Shown: positions 21,338 through 61,763 of the stretch, piece by piece
Layout of the letters: every line of letters starts with the position of its first letter
Position numbering within the stretch: the stretch's first letter is position 1
Assembly: GCA_017881685.1 (NCBI GenBank)
Contig: JADGQR010000121.1
Span: 1-61,794, forward strand
Length of the DNA: 61,794 nt
Direction: 5' to 3'
From: Gemmatimonadaceae bacterium
GTDB lineage: Bacteria > Gemmatimonadota > Gemmatimonadetes > Gemmatimonadales > Gemmatimonadaceae
Translations under genes and position numbers: made by a program
Notes under the pieces: model-generated
Database searches by the model: none
Seen by the model: the letters and a program-made list of their open reading frames with translations, nothing else
Told to the model about the DNA's origin: nothing

Positions 21338-21475
21338 TGCGGACTCAGGACAAAAAGCCATCGACGATCGACGACTAATTGAGGGCTGAGGACCGAAACG
21401 GCAGTAACAGGTCCTCAGTGTCCGCAATTCTCAATCAGTCGTCGATCGTCGATGGCCGTTAGTCCTGAGTCCGCA
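21338..21475. repeat. Intergenic palindrome of two inverted copies of repeat family R1
   Basis: Arms 21338-21383 and 21430-21475 (42/46 complementary by eye) plus inner hairpin CTGAGGACC/GGTCCTCAG (21386-21394/21410-21418). Confidence 0.9.
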
Positions 21476-39177: not shown

Positions 39178-39220
39178 GATTGCGGCCTCAGGACTAACCG
39201 CCATCTACGATCGAGGACTG
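39178..39220 (-). repeat. Intergenic repeat R1 copy
   Basis: Reverse complement CAGTCCTCGATCGTAGATGGCGGTTAGTCCTGAGGCCGCAATC matches the copy at 40077-40119 in 39/43 positions by eye. Confidence 0.85.
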
Positions 39221-40073: not shown

Positions 40074-40147
40074 ACTCAGTCGTCGATCGTCGATGGCTGT
40101 TAGTCCTGAGGCCGCAGTCCATGGCGTTGGTCCTGAGGCCGCAATCC
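40074..40147 (+). repeat. Intergenic repeat R1 copy plus tandem partial copy
   Basis: ACTCAGTCGTCGATCGTCGATGGCTGTTAGTCCTGAGGCCGCAGTCC then TGGCGTTGGTCCTGAGGCCGCAATCC. Confidence 0.85.
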
Positions 40148-52381: not shown

Positions 52382-52427
52382 GGTTCCAATCTAGTCGATA
52401 GATCTTTCCCCTCACAAACTGCTCTTT

Positions 52428-52669
52428 GACACAGAGACCACGGAGACCACAGAGCAGGCGGGATCGGTAGGCATTCGGACGGGAAATGCACCTCGATTCC
52501 TCGGATCTATGGATTTGGGGTTAAACGACAGAAGGGCGGCCGGTTGTCGGGAGGCTCTCGACATGGTTTTCCGTAGTGCAACCCCAAAAAGGAAAAGCCT
52601 GGGAAGGAGAGAATCTCTCGTTTCCCAGGCTTCTTTCGTCTTTTCTGTGGTCTCTGTGGTCTCTGTGTC
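52428..52669. repeat. ~242-bp element bounded by 26-bp inverted repeats
   Basis: GACACAGAGACCACGGAGACCACAGA (52428-52453) inverted at 52644-52669 with one mismatch. Confidence 0.85.
52595..52632 (-). terminator. Intrinsic terminator downstream of the sigma factor gene
   Basis: AAGCCTGGGAA...GAGAG-AAT-CTCTC...TTCCCAGGCTT; - strand continues TTCCTTTTT. Confidence 0.85.
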
Positions 52670-52695
52670 GACTAGCAGTTGGAGAGCAGAATCCT

Positions 52696-53553
52696 CTAGC
52701 CGAGAAATGATTCGAGGGCTCGGCGTCGAGAATTATGCCGGAGCTTCAACAGGGCCTTCTCCTTGATCTGCCGAACTCTCTCGCGAGTGATGCCGAGGAG
52801 TGTTCCGATATCCTCGAGAGTCATCGGATCTTCACCATCGAGCCCAAAGTAGAGACGAAGAATTTTCGACTCCCTCTCTTTCAGTCCCGACAGAGACTCC
52901 TCGATCGCCTCGGTCAGAGCCTTCTCGAAAGTCTGCTCGTCCGGCGTGCGGTTCGTCGTGTCAGGGAGATAGTCGAGAAGCCGATTGTCCTCGCCGGGTG
53001 TCATGGGCGCGTCGAGCGACAGATGCACCTGCGAGATCAGCATCGTCTTCGCGACTTCTTCCTCGGTGATGTCGAGGCCTTCCGCTATCTCGAGATGTGT
53101 CGGCTGGCGGCCGAGCTCCTGAAGCAGAGTGCTCGCGCGCTTGCCGATCCTGTGAAGCGCCCCGGCGCGATTCAACGGAACGCGAACAATCCTCGACTGC
53201 TCGGCCAATGCCTGGAGGATGCTCTGACGGATCCACCACACCGCGTACGAGATGAACTTGATGCCCTTTGTCTCGTCGAATTTGTGGGCCGCGCGAATGA
53301 GTCCGAGGTTTCCCTCGTTGATCAGATCCGAGAGAGATACTCCCTGGTTCTGATATTTCTTCGCGACAGACACGACGAACCGCAGGTTCGAGCGCACGAG
53401 TTTATCGAGCGCTTCCTGGTCGTTCTTGCGGATCCGTTGCGCGAGAGTGACTTCCTCCTCGCGGGTTATCAGCGGATAGATGCTGATATCACGAAGGTAT
53501 TGATCCAGCGAACCTTCGTCGTACTGATTCTTCCGGTTTACCGAGACCGCCAT
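52696..53553 (-). CDS. rpoD: Primary-type sigma-70 factor lacking region 1.1 (285 aa)
   Basis: DQYLRDISIYPLITREEEVTLAQRI (1.2), LRFVVSVAKKYQNQGVSLSDLINEGNLGLIRAAHKFDETKGIKFISYAVWWIRQSI (2), ITRERVRQIKEKALLKLR (4.2). Confidence 0.93.
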   Translation of the reverse strand: MAVSVNRKNQYDEGSLDQYLRDISIYPLITREEEVTLAQRIRKNDQEALDKLVRSNLRFVVSVAKKYQNQGVSLSDLINEGNLGLIRAAHKFDETKGIKFISYAVWWIRQSILQALAEQSRIVRVPLNRAGALHRIGKRASTLLQELGRQPTHLEIAEGLDITEEEVAKTMLISQVHLSLDAPMTPGEDNRLLDYLPDTTNRTPDEQTFEKALTEAIEESLSGLKERESKILRLYFGLDGEDPMTLEDIGTLLGITRERVRQIKEKALLKLRHNSRRRALESFLG

Positions 53554-53623: not shown

Positions 53624-54415
53624 TCACTGAATCATCTCGCCAAAACGTTTCCACCGAACACGAGTGAGCCAGTCCAGTTTCACGGCGCCGTCAGGATCGT
53701 AACTATAATAGACAACGAGGGGTTGTCCGCGCACAAGTGAGTCGGCAACGAATCCCCAGTATCTCGAGTCGAGCGAGTTGTCCCTGTTGTCGCCAAGAAC
53801 GAAGTAGTTACCCGTTGGGACGACCAGTGGACCCCAGTTGTTTCGCGACGGATGGTAGCCGGGACTGGCTTCCAGCGTTGCCACCGCAATCGGCGATCGC
53901 GGCGGCTCGTTCACCGGATGCTGCGCGCCGAGGAGGTACGCGAGCTGCCAGTTGAATTCGTCGTCGGACACGTCGGAACCGGGCGCGGTATGTGATACGT
54001 AGTCTTCCCGCTGGACTTTTCCGTTCCGCACGAGAGTCCCCTGACGCATCTCCAGAGTATCACCGGGCATCCCGACGATTCGCTTCACAAAATTCTTCGT
54101 GCGATCCACGGGCCACTGGAAGACGATCACGTCACCGCGCTTTGGTGCGCGAATCGCCGGAAGCTTGACCTTCGTAAACGGAACTTCGGCTCCGTATACG
54201 AGCTTGTTCACGAGGAGGAAATCACCGACGAGCAGGGTTCCTTCCATGCTTCCCGTCGGAATCTTGAAGGCTTCTATGAAGAACGACCTCACGACAAAGA
54301 ACAGTGCGAGAGCGATGACGACAGACCGGAACCACTCCCACAAAAATAAGAGTGTTCCGTTCCGACGCCCGTTGGCTTTCTCTAGTGCGGCTGATCGCCG
54401 CTCTTCGTTCACCAT
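53624..54415 (-). CDS. lepB: Signal peptidase I
   Basis: FKIPTGSMEGTLLVGDFLLVNK (Ser), KRGDVIVFQWPVDRTKNFVKRIVGMPGD (Lys), GDNRDNSLDSRYWGFV. Confidence 0.95.
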   Translation of the reverse strand: MVNEERRSAALEKANGRRNGTLLFLWEWFRSVVIALALFFVVRSFFIEAFKIPTGSMEGTLLVGDFLLVNKLVYGAEVPFTKVKLPAIRAPKRGDVIVFQWPVDRTKNFVKRIVGMPGDTLEMRQGTLVRNGKVQREDYVSHTAPGSDVSDDEFNWQLAYLLGAQHPVNEPPRSPIAVATLEASPGYHPSRNNWGPLVVPTGNYFVLGDNRDNSLDSRYWGFVADSLVRGQPLVVYYSYDPDGAVKLDWLTRVRWKRFGEMIQ

Positions 54416-54439: not shown

Positions 54440-55939
54440 CTAGTCAGGACTTCCAAGATAATTGTCGATCTGGGCGCGCTGAAGAGTTCCAGAGAAGTCA
54501 GCGTACCCGACCTTCGTCTCGGAGTAGAACTCATACACCTGCCACCCGCCTTCCCTGTGCCCATTGCCCGTCTGCTTTACACCGCCGAAGGGCAAGTGTG
54601 CCTCGGCCCCAATGGTTGGAGCGTTCACGTATGTAATACCGTTGTCGAGCTCATTCAAAGCACGGAAGGCAACGTTCACGTTGGACGTATATATGGAAGA
54701 CGACAGTCCGTACTTCACGTCATTATTGACGGCGAACGCTTCATCCGCGGTCGACACACGAATCACCGACAGAACCGGTCCGAAAATCTCTTCCTGCTCG
54801 AGACGGTTTCCGGCTTCCACACGCGCAAAGATCGTCGGCTCGAAGAAGTCTCCATTGTCGAGACCGTCTCCAGTCGCCCGACGACCGCCGCAGAGAAGAT
54901 CACCGCCTTCGGACTGACCGATGTCGATGTACCTCTCGACTTTGGCCAGGGCTGCCTCATGAATCATGGGGCCGACGTCGGTTCCCGACTTGCGGCCATC
55001 GCCCAGCTTGAGCGCCTTCGCCTTGTCGACGAGCATTCCGAGGAAGTTGTCGTGAATCCCCTTCTGAAGAATGAGCCTGCTCGTCGCTGTGCACCGCTGC
55101 CCGGTCGTTCCGAATGCTCCCCACAACGCACCTTCGAGCGCGAGGTCGAGATCAGCATCGTCCATGACGATCTGCGCGTTCTTTCCACCCATCTCCAGCG
55201 ACAGACGCTTGTGCATCCGTCCGCACGTAGCGCCGACGAGACTTCCTGTCTCCGTCGATCCCGTGAACGAGATGAGGGGAATATCGGGATGCTCGACAAT
55301 CACCGATCCAGCTTCTTCGCCTGTTCCGTGAACGAGCTGGACGACTTCCGGCGGCAGGCCCGCCTCCAGAAGAATCTCCACGAGCAGCGTTCCCGTGTGC
55401 GGGACGTCCTCTGCCGGCTTGAAGATCACCGAGTTTCCGCACACGAGCGCGGGAAACATTTTCCAGGTTGGAATCGCGAGCGGAAAATTGAACGGGCAAA
55501 TCAGCCCTGCAACTCCGATCGGCCGGCGATAGCTCATCGCCCACTTGTTGCGCAGCTCGCTCGGAACCGTGTGTCCGAATAGCCGACGGCCTTCGCTCGC
55601 CGCGTAGTACGCAGTGTCGATTCCTTCCTGCACATCGCCACGGGTTTCGGTGAGAGGCTTGCCCATCTCGCGTGTCATTGCGTCGGCGATCTCTTCCTTG
55701 CGCTGTGTCAGCAAATCGCCGACAACGCGGAGAACATCGCCGCGAGCAGGTGCCGGCGTTGCGCGCCACCTGGCGAATCCGCGCTTCGCGCTCTCGACTG
55801 CGCGATTGACATCCGACGCTCCTGATCGCGGGAAGGTTCCGATCAGATCATTGCGATCGGCGGGATTGCGATTCTCGAAATATTCGCCGGAGTCGGGCGG
55901 AACCCACGCACCGGCAATGAAGTTCTTGAACTGTTTCAT
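54440..55939 (-). CDS. Aldehyde dehydrogenase family protein
   Basis: ICPFNFPLAIPTWKMFPALVCGN, SLEMGGKNAQIV, GTTGQRCTATSR. Confidence 0.93.
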   Translation of the reverse strand: MKQFKNFIAGAWVPPDSGEYFENRNPADRNDLIGTFPRSGASDVNRAVESAKRGFARWRATPAPARGDVLRVVGDLLTQRKEEIADAMTREMGKPLTETRGDVQEGIDTAYYAASEGRRLFGHTVPSELRNKWAMSYRRPIGVAGLICPFNFPLAIPTWKMFPALVCGNSVIFKPAEDVPHTGTLLVEILLEAGLPPEVVQLVHGTGEEAGSVIVEHPDIPLISFTGSTETGSLVGATCGRMHKRLSLEMGGKNAQIVMDDADLDLALEGALWGAFGTTGQRCTATSRLILQKGIHDNFLGMLVDKAKALKLGDGRKSGTDVGPMIHEAALAKVERYIDIGQSEGGDLLCGGRRATGDGLDNGDFFEPTIFARVEAGNRLEQEEIFGPVLSVIRVSTADEAFAVNNDVKYGLSSSIYTSNVNVAFRALNELDNGITYVNAPTIGAEAHLPFGGVKQTGNGHREGGWQVYEFYSETKVGYADFSGTLQRAQIDNYLGSPD

Positions 55940-55954
55940 GTTCCTTTCAATTCG

Positions 55955-57322
55955 TTATGAGTGTTCGCGCGTCAGCGCGTAACGCTCGATTTTCTTGTAG
56001 AGATTGGACCGCGGCATTTCGACTGCGCGAGCTGTTTCCGAGACATTCCAGTCGAACTCACGCAGCTTGCTTAGAAGGTAAGCACGCTCGGCCGCTTCCT
56101 TGAACTCCTCGAAGGTCTTGAGCGAAGTCAGACCGCCGAGTCCGGCGTCGTCAGCGACGCGTCCGCCTGCGAGACGATCGACATCCTTCGCGGTCAGCTC
56201 CGGCCCTGTCGCAAGAATCAGCATTCGTTCGACTGTATTCCGCAACTCTCGAACGTTGCCCGGCCAGTCGAGCGACATCAAGCGCTCCATTGCCGACGCG
56301 CCCATGCGCCGCGGGATAAATCCCTCTCGCTCGGACAGGATCGACAGAAAATGCTCGACGAGCGCCGGGATGTCGTCGCGGTGCTCACGAAGCGGCGGAA
56401 CGTGAATCGGAATGACGTTCAATCGATAGTAGAGATCCTCGCGGAATCTTCCCGCCGCGATCTCCTGCTCCAGACTCTTGTTGGTCGCGGCAATGACGCG
56501 AACGTCAACCGAGATCGGCTTCTGTCCGCCGATTCGCGTAATCACGTTGTCTTGAAGAACACGCAGCACCTTCGCCTGCGCATTCATGCTCATGTCGCCG
56601 ATCTCGTCGAGAAACAGCGTTCCCTTGTTCGCCTGCTCGAACTTTCCGGCGCGATCCGCGATCGCGCCTGTGAACGATCCCTTCATGTGTCCGAACAGCT
56701 CGCTCTCGATCAGCTCGCCCGGGATCGCTGCGCAGTTTACTTCGACAAACGGTTTGCCCTCGCGCGACGAATGCCGGTGAATCGCGCGAGCGACAAGCTC
56801 CTTGCCGGTGCCGTTCTCACCGGTAATGAGAACACGCGCCGGAGTTGATCCAACCTTCTCGATCTTTTCCTTCAGCGCGCGCATCACCGCCGAATCACCG
56901 ACTATCTCGTAGGGAGAGCCAGTGTAATTCCGCAGCCGCGAATTCTCTTCCCGGAGATTGATGTGGTCGAAGACATTTCGCAGCATCACGAGAATTCGGT
57001 CGGTGTCGAGCGGCTTCTCGAGAATCTCGTAAGCGCCAAGCTGGGTCGCTTCGACCGCAGTGCGAATCGTCGCGTGGCCACTGATCATCACGACCGTAGC
57101 GACGGGATCGATCTCGCGAATCTTCTTCAGCGCCTCCATCCCGTCCATGCCGGCCATCTTCACATCCATGAAGACCAGATTCGGCCGCCACTTCTGATAC
57201 TCGGAGATTCCGTCCGCTGCGTTCGAGGCCGAATGAACCTCATAACCCTCGTACTCGAGAAGCTGACCGAGCGCAGCGCGTATGCCCTGCTCGTCGTCGA
57301 CTACGAGGATGCGTCGGTTCAT
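55955..57322 (-). CDS. Sigma-54-dependent response regulator (NtrC family)
   Basis: REC domain MDVKMAGMDGMEALKKI; AAA+ ITGENGTGKELVARAIH, GSFTGA; C-terminal Fis-type HTH NVSETARAVEMPRSNLYKKI. Confidence 0.94.
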   Translation of the reverse strand: MNRRILVVDDEQGIRAALGQLLEYEGYEVHSASNAADGISEYQKWRPNLVFMDVKMAGMDGMEALKKIREIDPVATVVMISGHATIRTAVEATQLGAYEILEKPLDTDRILVMLRNVFDHINLREENSRLRNYTGSPYEIVGDSAVMRALKEKIEKVGSTPARVLITGENGTGKELVARAIHRHSSREGKPFVEVNCAAIPGELIESELFGHMKGSFTGAIADRAGKFEQANKGTLFLDEIGDMSMNAQAKVLRVLQDNVITRIGGQKPISVDVRVIAATNKSLEQEIAAGRFREDLYYRLNVIPIHVPPLREHRDDIPALVEHFLSILSEREGFIPRRMGASAMERLMSLDWPGNVRELRNTVERMLILATGPELTAKDVDRLAGGRVADDAGLGGLTSLKTFEEFKEAAERAYLLSKLREFDWNVSETARAVEMPRSNLYKKIERYALTREHS

Positions 57323-57993
57323 GGAAGATTCTTGTAGACGATGATGCGGCCGTTGGCGATGCGAATGTCGCCGATGTAGAGAGGCAGCTTCATCGGGAGA
57401 GCATCCGAAGCGAGGCCAGCAGGCATCGTTCCCTTCCGCATGCGCTTGATGAGCTTCGGTATCAGCGGTGAAGGGATCGGGAACGATCCGATGCGCACGT
57501 TCTTCGCTTCGAACTCTCCGACACCGGGACGAAGGACGTGAATAGTCCCGCCGAGCTGCACAGTGTCTCGCGTGCCGAGCATCCCCGCGAGGGGACCAAG
57601 AACCGCAGCTCCGCCGAAATCCTTCAAATCGACATTCGCGCGCACGTTGAGGCGATCGTCTTTCACGGATGCCTGGATGTCCTGCGATGACGTCGGAAGT
57701 TGTTTGGCGACTTCGAGGAAAATGTAGGACGCTGCTTCGCCGGGAGTCAGGTTCGCGAAGACGGGGCCTGTTTTGCTCGAGAGCGCCTCGACCTGCATTT
57801 TCCCGCGCGTGGCTTTATCGCCGGTCAGCGATTCCCACCCTCCGGCGGCGTCTGCGGAGCCGGACGATGTCGAAATGCGGTCACCGGCGTAACGACGATA
57901 TATCTCTTCGAGCCTGCCCCGATTGAACCAGGCAAGAACACCGATGATTAGCAGAAAAACGAGACAGCCAAGCCGGCGAAAGCAGCCAAACAT
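57319..57993 (-). CDS. Hypothetical membrane-anchored protein
   Basis: N-terminal TM CLVFLLIIGVLAWF; ATGA overlap with the regulator gene. Confidence 0.7.
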   Translation of the reverse strand: MFGCFRRLGCLVFLLIIGVLAWFNRGRLEEIYRRYAGDRISTSSGSADAAGGWESLTGDKATRGKMQVEALSSKTGPVFANLTPGEAASYIFLEVAKQLPTSSQDIQASVKDDRLNVRANVDLKDFGGAAVLGPLAGMLGTRDTVQLGGTIHVLRPGVGEFEAKNVRIGSFPIPSPLIPKLIKRMRKGTMPAGLASDALPMKLPLYIGDIRIANGRIIVYKNLP

Positions 57994-58009
57994 ATTTGAT
58001 CCGAGTATC

Positions 58010-58086
58010 GAGGTTTACGAACGGGGAATATCCCCTATCGTCAGGCCGGTGCAAAGCCCACCGGCTTGTCATGACGGGCAAACCTC
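58010..58086 (-). ncRNA. Candidate cis-regulatory structured RNA (three-helix fold) in the leader of 57319..57993; strand inferred
   Basis: P1 GAGGTTT/AAACCTC (58010-58016/58080-58086); P2 GGGGA/TCCCC (58023-58027/58031-58035); P3 CGTCA/TGACG (58039-58043/58072-58076) enclosing GCCGGTG/CACCGGC (58045-58051/58059-58065). Confidence 0.5.
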
Positions 58087-58094
58087 GCGCCGGA

Positions 58095-61000
58095 TCAGCC
58101 CCCTGGCGGTCCGAATCTCCCTTCGCCGCCGCCGTTCTGCGGACGCTGGAACGGATCTTTCACGTCCTTCGGTATCTTCGCCCATTGCTCAGGTGTCAGA
58201 ACACCCTGCGCATCCTTGATCGCCTTCTGCGCGAGCGTCCTGCCTTCCTGAATCTTTCCGCGCATCTTTATTCCCAGCTGCATCGGGTCTGCGTTCTTCG
58301 CGTCCGTTCCACCGAGAGTGTTCGCAAGTGATCCGATGATCGTATCGGCCTGCGCCTGAAGACTGTCACCGAGCACTGCGAGCTTACCCTTCTGCTCCGC
58401 GGTCAGCTCGAGCTTCAGTGAATCGTTCAGATCGAGGATCTGCGTGAAGACGTTTGGAACGGCACGCGCGAGACGCTGGCGGAAGTCGTCAGCAGTCATA
58501 CGCTGCCCGCCGCGGCCGCCGCCAAACACGCCCTGCATCTGCTGTCGCGCAGGATCGACGCCGAGCGTTAGGCGACCCTGAACCGAGATCTGGAACGGAA
58601 CCCTGAACGCATTACGACTTCCGGCCGCTGCGCCGAAGTGTTCGTTCACCTGATAGAGGAAGCGCTGATTCACCGGATCGAATCCGCGAACGTAAAGCAG
58701 CGTGCGGTCCGGGAATACGGGCTGGCCCCAGCCGTGAAGATTGTCGCTTCCGTGCAGAAGCCTGTCGATACCCGCGAGCGTGTTGAGACCGACGACCGAG
58801 ATCGTGAGCCTGCGATTCAATCCAAAGCTCGACGGCTTGATGTTCGCCTGGAGGTCGAACGATGTCGACCATGGAACCGAGCAGCTGTTGCGGGCTGCAA
58901 CGGTACCGGTCTGGCTCAAGATGCAGCTCTTCGCCCGATCGGGCGCCGACGCAAGCAGCCGGGACATGCCATTCGAGATCGCAGTGTCCGGGGCAGTCAG
59001 CGGATCGAAGATGAATGGCCGGTCGTTCCTCAAGCCGTCGCCGTTCACGTCGCCACCCACAAGCGGTGTGAAGAATCCACCCGAAGTCAGGCGCGCGATT
59101 GCCGTCAGCTCGATGAATGGCTTGATCGGCCACGTCACGGTTCCGATTATCGCATGACGACGCTCCTGATCACTCGTCCCGCGCTCGGCCAGGTTTGGAT
59201 TTCCCGCCGTTGACGCACCGGAGCCCCCGCCGCCAAACCCGCCGCCTCCAAAGCCACCGAACGTCGAGATTCCCTGCGACTGGTCGGTCGATCGTGTGAA
59301 CGTGTATGAGGCGTTGAAGAGAATCGCCTTTGTCGTGATTCCCTGGAAACTCGCAGTGAGCTGTTTCGAGTTGGACCTGAGATCCGAGTTCACTTCACTG
59401 ACCACGCCGAACCGCGGCTGGATTCTCGATCCCGTGAGTGATACCGCGCCTGTCTGAGGAACGATGGACGTAACTGGTGCGAACACCGGTCGTCCGCCTT
59501 CGCTGGCAAGCGTGAACTTTGGTGCCGTGTCGAGATTGAGATCTCGCGCACTTGTCTGGGCAACACCGTTTGCGAACGATCCGTCGAGCGAGAATGTGTA
59601 TCGCTCGACGAAGCGACGGGTGAATCCAAGCGATCCTCTCCATGCGCGGGGCGCTGCGAAGTCGCTGCTGAAGACGCTCACATTGCGCCGAGTGTTCGCA
59701 AACTGCTGGCTGGCACCGTTGCAGGTAGTCGGCACTGTGGACGGATCGGAGAGATACGACTGCCAGTCGGGAATCGGAACGCTCCCTCCAACGCACACGA
59801 TTTGCGACTGCGCGTTCACGAGTCCGTTCGCATCGGCCGCTGCCGCGAACAATTGCGACGGCGCCTTCCCTCTGAATTCGCCGATTCCGCCGCGAATGCT
59901 TCCGGCGGCAGGTCCCATCTGCGAAAGACCATACGTATATGTGAAACCGACGCGCGGACTGATGTGAGTCTCGGTCGGGAATGCGTCGGTTCTGAACCCA
60001 AACAGCGAATCGATTGCCGGATTGTATTTTGGTGCGTCAGGATAGCTCGAGTGTTCGAATCTCGCACCGTAGGTCAGCTGGAGCTTCGCCGACTGGCGCC
60101 ACGCGTCACCAAGGTAGAGTGCGCTGTTCAATCCTCGCGCATTTCTGACGTTGCTCGACAGCGTGCGCGTAAACGAGGCCGGGTGCCCGGCAGCGAAATC
60201 CGAAAGTGAGTTGAACGTGAACGTGCCGAGCGCGTTCGAGAAAGTCCCGTTCTCGCTGTCGTCTATATCGAGAAGTCCGCCGAGCTTGACTCGGTGGGCT
60301 CCGGTGCGGGAGACCCGGGAGACCTCGTCGCTGAACTCGGTAAGCTGAGTATGCGTCTCCTGGGGAAGCGAGGGGTTCACACCAAACTGAAGAGTCGACA
60401 CTCCGAGCGATCCGTCCGCAAGATTGGATGCTACTACAACGCGTCCCGATGGAATGTCGATGTAAGGGTCGGTCGTCCTCTTGTCGATCGAGCGATATCC
60501 GCGCAGCTCGTTGATGAAGCTCGCCCAATGCGAAGTGAGCGTCACCATCCCTCCGCCGCCTGAACCCTTGGCATTCCCACCGCTATGCGGAACCGCAAAA
60601 GCCGAGATTCGGCTCGCGTCCTGAACTGAGCCGCGCCAATCGCCGCGAAGCATCAGCGTGTTCGCTTCACCGAGATTGTAGTCGACGCGAACGAGAGCGG
60701 ATGCATTGTCGTTCAGGCGCTCCTCGGGAATCTGCGCCGACGTTGGCTGCAAGCCGTACTGGCCGAGCAGCGACAGGAAGTGCGCGACCGAGTCGCTGTT
60801 GGTTCCAAGCCGCTGGAATGCGAGAGGATCCGCCGCGAGAAGTGATTGGAGCGGATCTGTTCGTCGCGTGAGCGTAAGCGCGCCAAACGTGAACAGCTTG
60901 TTCTTGATGATCGGCCCGCCGAATCCGCCGCTAATCTGGTTCTGTGTATACTTCTGGGAGAACGCATTTTCGCCATCATCGACGAACTCGAGCGACGGAT

Positions 61001-61763
61001 CGCGCAGTGAATAACCGAGCGCTCCCTGGAATACGTTGGTTCCGCCGCGAGTGGTGCTTGCGACCTGTCCGCCGGTGAATTGTCCGCGAGCAACGTCGTA
61101 TGTGCTTGTGATAACTCTGGTGTTGCGAACGGCTTCCTGCGGAACGCTTCCGGAGCCGAACGAAAGTCCGTCGAGCGTGAGGCTGTTCTGATTCGCCGGC
61201 TGGCCCGCGACTGAAAACGATGCAGGTGTCGAGTCAGTGCCGGCGACGCCGATCACGCCTGGCGCGAGTGTCGCAAGCGCATTCAGATCGCCCGCGTCGA
61301 TCGGCAGGCGATTGATCAGTCCCGGCGGAAGGCCGCGTTCTGTAGATCCAGCCTCGGGGCGATCGGTATTTCGATTGCGATTTGGCGAGGCCCGAACCTG
61401 GACGCTTTGAAGCACCGTCGCATTGCGGCCCATGACGACATCATGAACGAGACGGTCTTCGTCGTTGTTGCGGACAAGCGCGAACCGCTGCGGCGCGTAC
61501 CCAATCGATATCACCTGGACGCTGTAGGCGCCGCCCCCGTCAGGGAACAGTATTGAATAGCGGCCATCGGCGTCCGTCACCTTCGTTCGCGCGATCTGCG
61601 TTTCAGTGGACGTCACCTCGACTTTGGCGCCAGCGATTGGCTTGCCGTCGGGTGACGTGACGCGACCCATGATGATGTCGGTGGTCGAGCCAACTTGCGC
61701 GGAAGCAGCCCCCGGAAGAAGAAGCAATGCCGCCGCGAGACTGATGAGTGAAGACAACTTCAT
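58095..61763 (-). CDS. TonB-dependent receptor/CarboxypepD_reg-like outer-membrane protein with C-terminal LTxxQ-type extension
   Basis: Signal peptide; CarboxypepD_reg domain (GRVTSPDGKPIAGAKVEVTSTET); plug (SFSVAGQPANQNSLTLDGLSFGSGSVPQEAVRNTRVITSTYDVARGQFTGGQVASTTRGGTN); long barrel; C-terminal LTAEQKGKLAVLGDSL...LTPEQWAKIP. Confidence 0.9.
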   Translation of the reverse strand: MKLSSLISLAAALLLLPGAASAQVGSTTDIIMGRVTSPDGKPIAGAKVEVTSTETQIARTKVTDADGRYSILFPDGGGAYSVQVISIGYAPQRFALVRNNDEDRLVHDVVMGRNATVLQSVQVRASPNRNRNTDRPEAGSTERGLPPGLINRLPIDAGDLNALATLAPGVIGVAGTDSTPASFSVAGQPANQNSLTLDGLSFGSGSVPQEAVRNTRVITSTYDVARGQFTGGQVASTTRGGTNVFQGALGYSLRDPSLEFVDDGENAFSQKYTQNQISGGFGGPIIKNKLFTFGALTLTRRTDPLQSLLAADPLAFQRLGTNSDSVAHFLSLLGQYGLQPTSAQIPEERLNDNASALVRVDYNLGEANTLMLRGDWRGSVQDASRISAFAVPHSGGNAKGSGGGGMVTLTSHWASFINELRGYRSIDKRTTDPYIDIPSGRVVVASNLADGSLGVSTLQFGVNPSLPQETHTQLTEFSDEVSRVSRTGAHRVKLGGLLDIDDSENGTFSNALGTFTFNSLSDFAAGHPASFTRTLSSNVRNARGLNSALYLGDAWRQSAKLQLTYGARFEHSSYPDAPKYNPAIDSLFGFRTDAFPTETHISPRVGFTYTYGLSQMGPAAGSIRGGIGEFRGKAPSQLFAAAADANGLVNAQSQIVCVGGSVPIPDWQSYLSDPSTVPTTCNGASQQFANTRRNVSVFSSDFAAPRAWRGSLGFTRRFVERYTFSLDGSFANGVAQTSARDLNLDTAPKFTLASEGGRPVFAPVTSIVPQTGAVSLTGSRIQPRFGVVSEVNSDLRSNSKQLTASFQGITTKAILFNASYTFTRSTDQSQGISTFGGFGGGGFGGGGSGASTAGNPNLAERGTSDQERRHAIIGTVTWPIKPFIELTAIARLTSGGFFTPLVGGDVNGDGLRNDRPFIFDPLTAPDTAISNGMSRLLASAPDRAKSCILSQTGTVAARNSCSVPWSTSFDLQANIKPSSFGLNRRLTISVVGLNTLAGIDRLLHGSDNLHGWGQPVFPDRTLLYVRGFDPVNQRFLYQVNEHFGAAAGSRNAFRVPFQISVQGRLTLGVDPARQQMQGVFGGGRGGQRMTADDFRQRLARAVPNVFTQILDLNDSLKLELTAEQKGKLAVLGDSLQAQADTIIGSLANTLGGTDAKNADPMQLGIKMRGKIQEGRTLAQKAIKDAQGVLTPEQWAKIPKDVKDPFQRPQNGGGEGRFGPPGG

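Follow-up and report, generated by a model that had tools for sequence, protein, structure and literature searches.

Several kinds of described control region resemble the DNA analysed here. The riboswitch and ribosomal-protein leaders of Rfam are, like it, compact folds of several helices that precede a start codon. Intercistronic mRNA stem-loops, protective or attenuating, share a stable structure, which here begins at the stop codon of the upstream gene and ends shortly ahead of the downstream ATG. The likeness to a sigma-70-type promoter lies in two conserved blocks, spaced by about 17–18 nt and placed 30–46 nt before the ATG irrespective of the upstream gene. In the open literature on promoters, riboswitches, and structured RNAs of Gemmatimonas and its phylum, no specific study was found. 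The region is real and non-random, occupies one locus in five related genomes, and is most likely an ordinary promoter together with a clade-specific inverted repeat.

The window, i.e., the whole stretch of 61,794 nt that was analysed, is contig C288 of a metagenome-assembled genome of a Gemmatimonadaceae bacterium, and it provides the "own" sequence in the comparisons. The feature occupies most of an intergenic gap of 101 nt between two minus-strand genes. The downstream gene overlaps the gene of an NtrC/NtrX-type regulator, and the genes of an aldehyde dehydrogenase and a signal peptidase follow, all on one strand:

58095–61763, minus strand: upstream gene, outer-membrane protein of 1222 aa (CarboxypepD_reg, OMP_b-brl_4, C-terminal LTXXQ)
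57319–57993, minus strand: downstream gene, 224-aa protein with an N-terminal membrane segment
55955–57322, minus strand: NtrC/NtrX-type sigma-54 response regulator, likely in an operon with the 224-aa gene
54440–55939, minus strand: aldehyde dehydrogenase, likely in the same operon
53624–54415, minus strand: signal peptidase, likely in the same operon

The 224-aa gene is likely the first of this operon, and no Pfam or NCBIfam family was matched by its product. Orthologs of the protein occur in 126 of the 148 sampled genomes of the family, nearly always as a single copy. In the other genera whose flanks were read, the gene directly follows another conserved gene, almost without a gap; an upstream region of its own is found within the genus. 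The outer-membrane gene with the C-terminal LTXXQ is mobile within the genus: it adjoins the 224-aa gene in most genomes and sits away from it in G007 and G011 (loci L147 and L149). In G015 the order is a yifB-like gene, two others, the outer-membrane gene, and then the 224-aa gene, which indicates that the upstream neighbourhood of the latter is variable.

Folded as minus-strand RNA, positions 58010–58086 have a minimum free energy of −35.9 kcal/mol, with a z score of −3.94 and none of 200 dinucleotide shuffles as stable. The plus-strand fold has a similar z score (−3.71) because the helices are near-perfect Watson-Crick. The elements of the fold are the following:

58078–58087, minus strand: left arm CGAGGTTTGC of the closing helix P1, which doubles as the TTTGC half of a GG-N10-GC site resembling that of sigma-54 (58076–58093)
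58009–58018, minus strand: right arm GTAAACCTCG of P1, pairing with 58078–58087
57997–58003, minus strand: right arm CGGATCA of the outer helix, containing a Shine-Dalgarno-like GGA
58045–58065, minus strand: apical hairpin GCCGGTG-GGCTTTG-CACCGGC, pair probabilities near 1
58023–58035, minus strand: hairpin or dyad GGGGA-TAT-TCCCC, pair probabilities near 1, and 0.75 at the tip

An earlier note on this DNA had described a compact structured RNA here, and every helix that it named is present on the minus strand where it had been placed. Its closing helix GAGGTTT/AAACCTC is real, the length of 7 bp being corrected to 10 bp with one G-U; the pair probabilities of this P1 helix in the window are 0.94–1.0. 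The note had missed an outer helix P0, TGATCCG/CGGATCA, of 7 bp (58091–58097 with 57997–58003, pair probabilities of 0.81–1.0), which links the stop codon of the outer-membrane gene (TGA, 58095–58097) to the bases just before the downstream ATG. The CGTCA/TGACG pairing exists in the sequence, but it is the weakest helix (pair probabilities of 0.41–0.82) and is unconserved in homologues. The separation between position 58010 and the ATG is 16 nt, not 17, and where no clear Shine-Dalgarno had been seen there is a weak GGA at 58000–58002, of which the GG is kept in the aligned relatives.

The earlier note could not match the element to a known class, and the Rfam check likewise gives no match at the gathering threshold. 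At permissive E-values the best score, 12.4 bits, falls short of the cut-off of 45, and nothing is found in four relatives. No intrinsic terminator is called at the element, and on the coding strand no T run follows any of the hairpins. The element is single-copy, the other matches in the genome being fragments of 16–39 nt. Neither a terminator nor a repeat family, a hit to which would have counted against the note's reading, was found. An apparent likeness of the plus-strand sequences GCAAAGCC and GGGCAAACC to c-di-GMP-I (GEMM) was also rejected, since they stand in the wrong order and Rfam gives no hit.

Other repeats do occur in the window. One of them is dispersed over several intergenic gaps, partly as inverted pairs:

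21338–21475, 39181–39219, and 40078–40143: TCGTCGATCGTCGATGGC with TTAGTCCTGAGKCCGCA

This repeat is REP-like or MITE-like. The own genome holds 18 exact copies of it; G007, G012, and G015 have a single one each, and 17 other relatives have none. At 52382–52734, in a divergent gap, an inverted pair of GACACAGAGACCACAGAGACCACAGA-type repeats surrounds a AAGCCTGGGAAACGAGAGA..TCTCTCCTTCCCAGGCTT stem that is strong and has a T-rich tail.

The fold was aligned among the five closest genomes (own, G012, G013, G007, and G015); in the four nearest relatives retaining it, the downstream protein is 59–72% identical. In the RNAalifold consensus of these five genomes, an outer helix, P1, and the two hairpins are all present. 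On the coding strand the intergenic part has a consensus energy of −18.96, whereas column shuffles average −7.84 (z = −4.25, none of 1000 as low), and the opposite-strand consensus fold of the same genomes has a z score of −3.47. In G013 and G015, one pair of P1 is changed on both sides, from A-U to G-C. Its other departures, in a count made post hoc over the five genomes, are G-U on the coding strand and not A-C, with the exception of two C-C breaks. These features favour an RNA on the coding strand, although five sequences and one double-changed pair make a thin basis.

The individual helices differ in their conservation. In an alignment of seven sequences, compensatory counts are barely above those of shuffles. 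Within the GGGGA/TCCCC dyad, GGA/TCC is invariant in seven relatives, and the next pair is G-C in three, C-G in two, and broken in two. Only the window has the full outer helix, of which the consensus fold contains four pairs. The stem letters of the apical hairpin differ in every relative, and several relatives have some stem around the same TTTGC; taken singly, it is significant only in the L072/L076/L078 group (shuffle p of 0.002) and, weakly, in the window (0.038). The covariation that the earlier note proposed to look for in homologues is weak: one P1 pair has the double change in two of seven sequences, one GGGGA/TCCCC pair is changed in two, and P2 fails. The structured intercistronic region of the note is supported by structure beyond chance in the window and in the five-genome alignment and by the compensatory change in P1; of the helices that it named, CGTCA/TGACG fails in homologues.

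Beyond these five genomes the fold is absent. The orthologous region of G014 gives a weak match to the five-sequence covariance model (E = 0.04). Among 179 genomes of the family, the model recovers those five, all at one locus, and no other credible copy: there is a tail of matches at E-values of 0.01–1 per genome, approximately what chance gives over 179 genomes. Matches in other genera are at chance level and were discarded, the best two of those inspected lying in coding sequence. Such a distribution is unlike that of a riboswitch class.

Another pattern of conservation emerges from the comparison of 16 orthologous upstream regions of the 224-aa gene within the genus. All 16 contain GGATATTC or GGGTATTC at 30–46 nt before the ATG, whatever the upstream gene. 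A TTTGC-like block (TTTGC, TTTGT, TATGC, or GTTGC) lies 24–26 nt before TATTC in 11 of them; the block is missing from four orthologs and lies 34 nt away in G015. The letters between the two blocks differ widely among orthologs. The most conserved letters (TTTGC and GGATATTC) persist in relatives that have lost the fold. Judging from this geometry, the conserved blocks are probably the −35 and −10 elements of a promoter:

58050–58055, minus strand: TTTGCA, probable −35 hexamer, 17 nt from GATATT
58027–58032, minus strand: GATATT, probable −10 hexamer, inside the dyad GGGGATATTCCCC (58023–58035)
58025–58030, minus strand: TATTCC, alternative −10 hexamer, inside the same dyad

The alternative pair of hexamers is TTGCAC and TATTCC, 18 nt apart. 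TTTGCA and GATATT match the consensus at 4/6 positions each, which is why a consensus promoter scan with a cut-off of 9/12 calls nothing at the element. Genome-wide, TTTGC-N-TATTCY has eight sites against one in the control, and the promoter motif is not a genome-wide repeat. The GGGATATTCC and GGGTATTCTCC patterns are far above their reversed controls. They were rejected as the mark of a regulon, the non-ortholog sites inspected being mostly coding-like and without the TTTGC block.

The explanation that we favour, at about even chances, is a sigma-70-type promoter of the operon of the 224-aa and NtrC/NtrX-type genes, lying inside a clade-specific inverted repeat that would fold the read-through mRNA. 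The promoter geometry and the conservation of P1 come from the comparison of genomes; the start site, the read-through, and the masking of translation are inferred. Taken alone, the promoter half, which rests on the conserved geometry, is fairly well supported and somewhat more likely than not. Transcription from the promoter would start about 20–25 nt before the ATG, a start being expected within about 15 nt downstream of GATATTCC. As this start is inside the element, the mRNA made from it would not contain the 5′ half of the structure and, free of the left arms, could be translated. An RNA reading through from the outer-membrane gene would instead close a three-way structure of P1 and two hairpins. 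In the window, the outer helix would also cover the GGA before the ATG, so that ribosomes would be kept off the next gene. This masking of read-through RNA is a tentative suggestion and somewhat doubtful. Because the best-conserved parts are promoter-like, the region would serve local control and would not represent a riboswitch of a new class.

The element might have a role of its own in RNA. The reading of the earlier note, a riboswitch or protein-binding leader of the downstream operon, has in its favour the significant five-genome consensus fold, the compensatory change in P1, and the compact multi-helix shape. Nevertheless, we regard it as very unlikely, the riboswitch-like leader being unsupported. 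Even permissive thresholds give no Rfam match, and a single locus in 5 of the 179 family genomes carries the element, the remaining matches being at chance level. Furthermore, its invariant letters are promoter hexamers that persist where the fold is absent, and the promoter would start the RNA downstream of the left arms. An equally long shot is an RNA that acts in cis in this clade and responds to read-through of the outer-membrane gene or to the end of its translation, with the internal promoter as a bypass. A ribosome terminating at the stop codon, which lies in the outer helix, would open the structure and thereby link the synthesis of the outer-membrane protein to the operon. The hairpin could also belong to the 3′ end of the outer-membrane gene, ending or protecting that transcript, with the promoter of the next gene overlapping it. 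This is consistent with the folding z scores, which in a split by upstream gene made post hoc are −1.7 to −3.4 in several loci that have the outer-membrane gene as upstream neighbour, and near zero (0.3 to −0.9) where it is not the neighbour. It is also consistent with the sequence-variable hairpins that follow the outer-membrane stop in the L072 group (shuffle p of 0.002) and in the relocated copy of G007. Yet L070, L071, L074, and L077 have the outer-membrane gene upstream and no folding excess, there is no U-tract or terminator call, and the relocated outer-membrane gene of G011 is without the element. In G007, where the outer-membrane gene is elsewhere with a different 3′ flank, an 8-bp P1 and the promoter blocks stay by the 224-aa gene. 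The arrangements of G007 and G011 thus imply that the arms go with the downstream gene, and a 3′ hairpin is improbable as an explanation.

Alternatively, the arms could act as DNA. A regulator bridging GAGGTTTGC and GCAAACCTC, which lie near −62 and +6 relative to the predicted start, would loop the promoter and leave the RNA fold as a by-product. These arms are conserved in G007 despite the different position of the outer-membrane gene, and their spacing differs by about one helical turn between four genomes (66–68 nt) and G015 (56 nt). Relatives that lack the left arm still have a right-arm-like AACCCTCG. However, neither arm is itself a dyad, the genome has no other copies of them, and for a DNA site the preference of the P1 departures for coding-strand G-U would be unexplained; we consider such an operator pair unlikely. 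The distal block CCGGCGCGAGGTTTGCCC (58076–58093) might in turn be a sigma-54 (−24/−12) promoter, in which case there would be two promoters and the sigma-54 transcript would have the hairpin leader. The genome has rpoN, the operon encodes a sigma-54 activator, and GG-N10-GC with TTTGC, to be compared with TGGCAC-N5-TTGC for a sigma-54 promoter, is found in the own genome, G012, G013, G015, G014, L069, and the L072 group. The spacing is nevertheless N11 in G007 and N8 in L068, four orthologs have no site, and GC-rich DNA has many GG and GC dinucleotides, which makes this second promoter quite unlikely.

A small hairpin of the TGCAC..GTGCA type is found directly after the outer-membrane stop in relatives with a gap of 57–59 nt:

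L070, 2779–2835: gap with the TGCAC..GTGCA-type hairpin
L071, 3081–3137: the same
L074, 4444–4500: the same
L077, 4442–4500: the same

In a comparison by eye its departures are G-U pairs of the coding strand, apart from a single broken pair in L156.

In conclusion, the probable sigma-70-type promoter within an inverted repeat illustrates that a fold conspicuous to the eye may overlap with a conserved promoter and owe part of its existence to it. Should the RNA role be real, the repeat would be a small gene-specific device for insulation or coupling. The comparison with described systems follows the same lines. Rfam riboswitch and ribosomal-protein leaders differ from the present region, which matches no family, is found at one locus, and has no conserved unpaired core apart from the promoter-like blocks. 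Unlike the intercistronic stem-loops of mRNAs, it has no U-tract, its P1 goes with the downstream gene in G007, and its transcript is a predicted one. With respect to a sigma-70-type promoter, the differences are that the hexamers match at 4/6, that the −10 element lies in a GC-rich dyad, and that in this clade an inverted repeat encloses the entire promoter.
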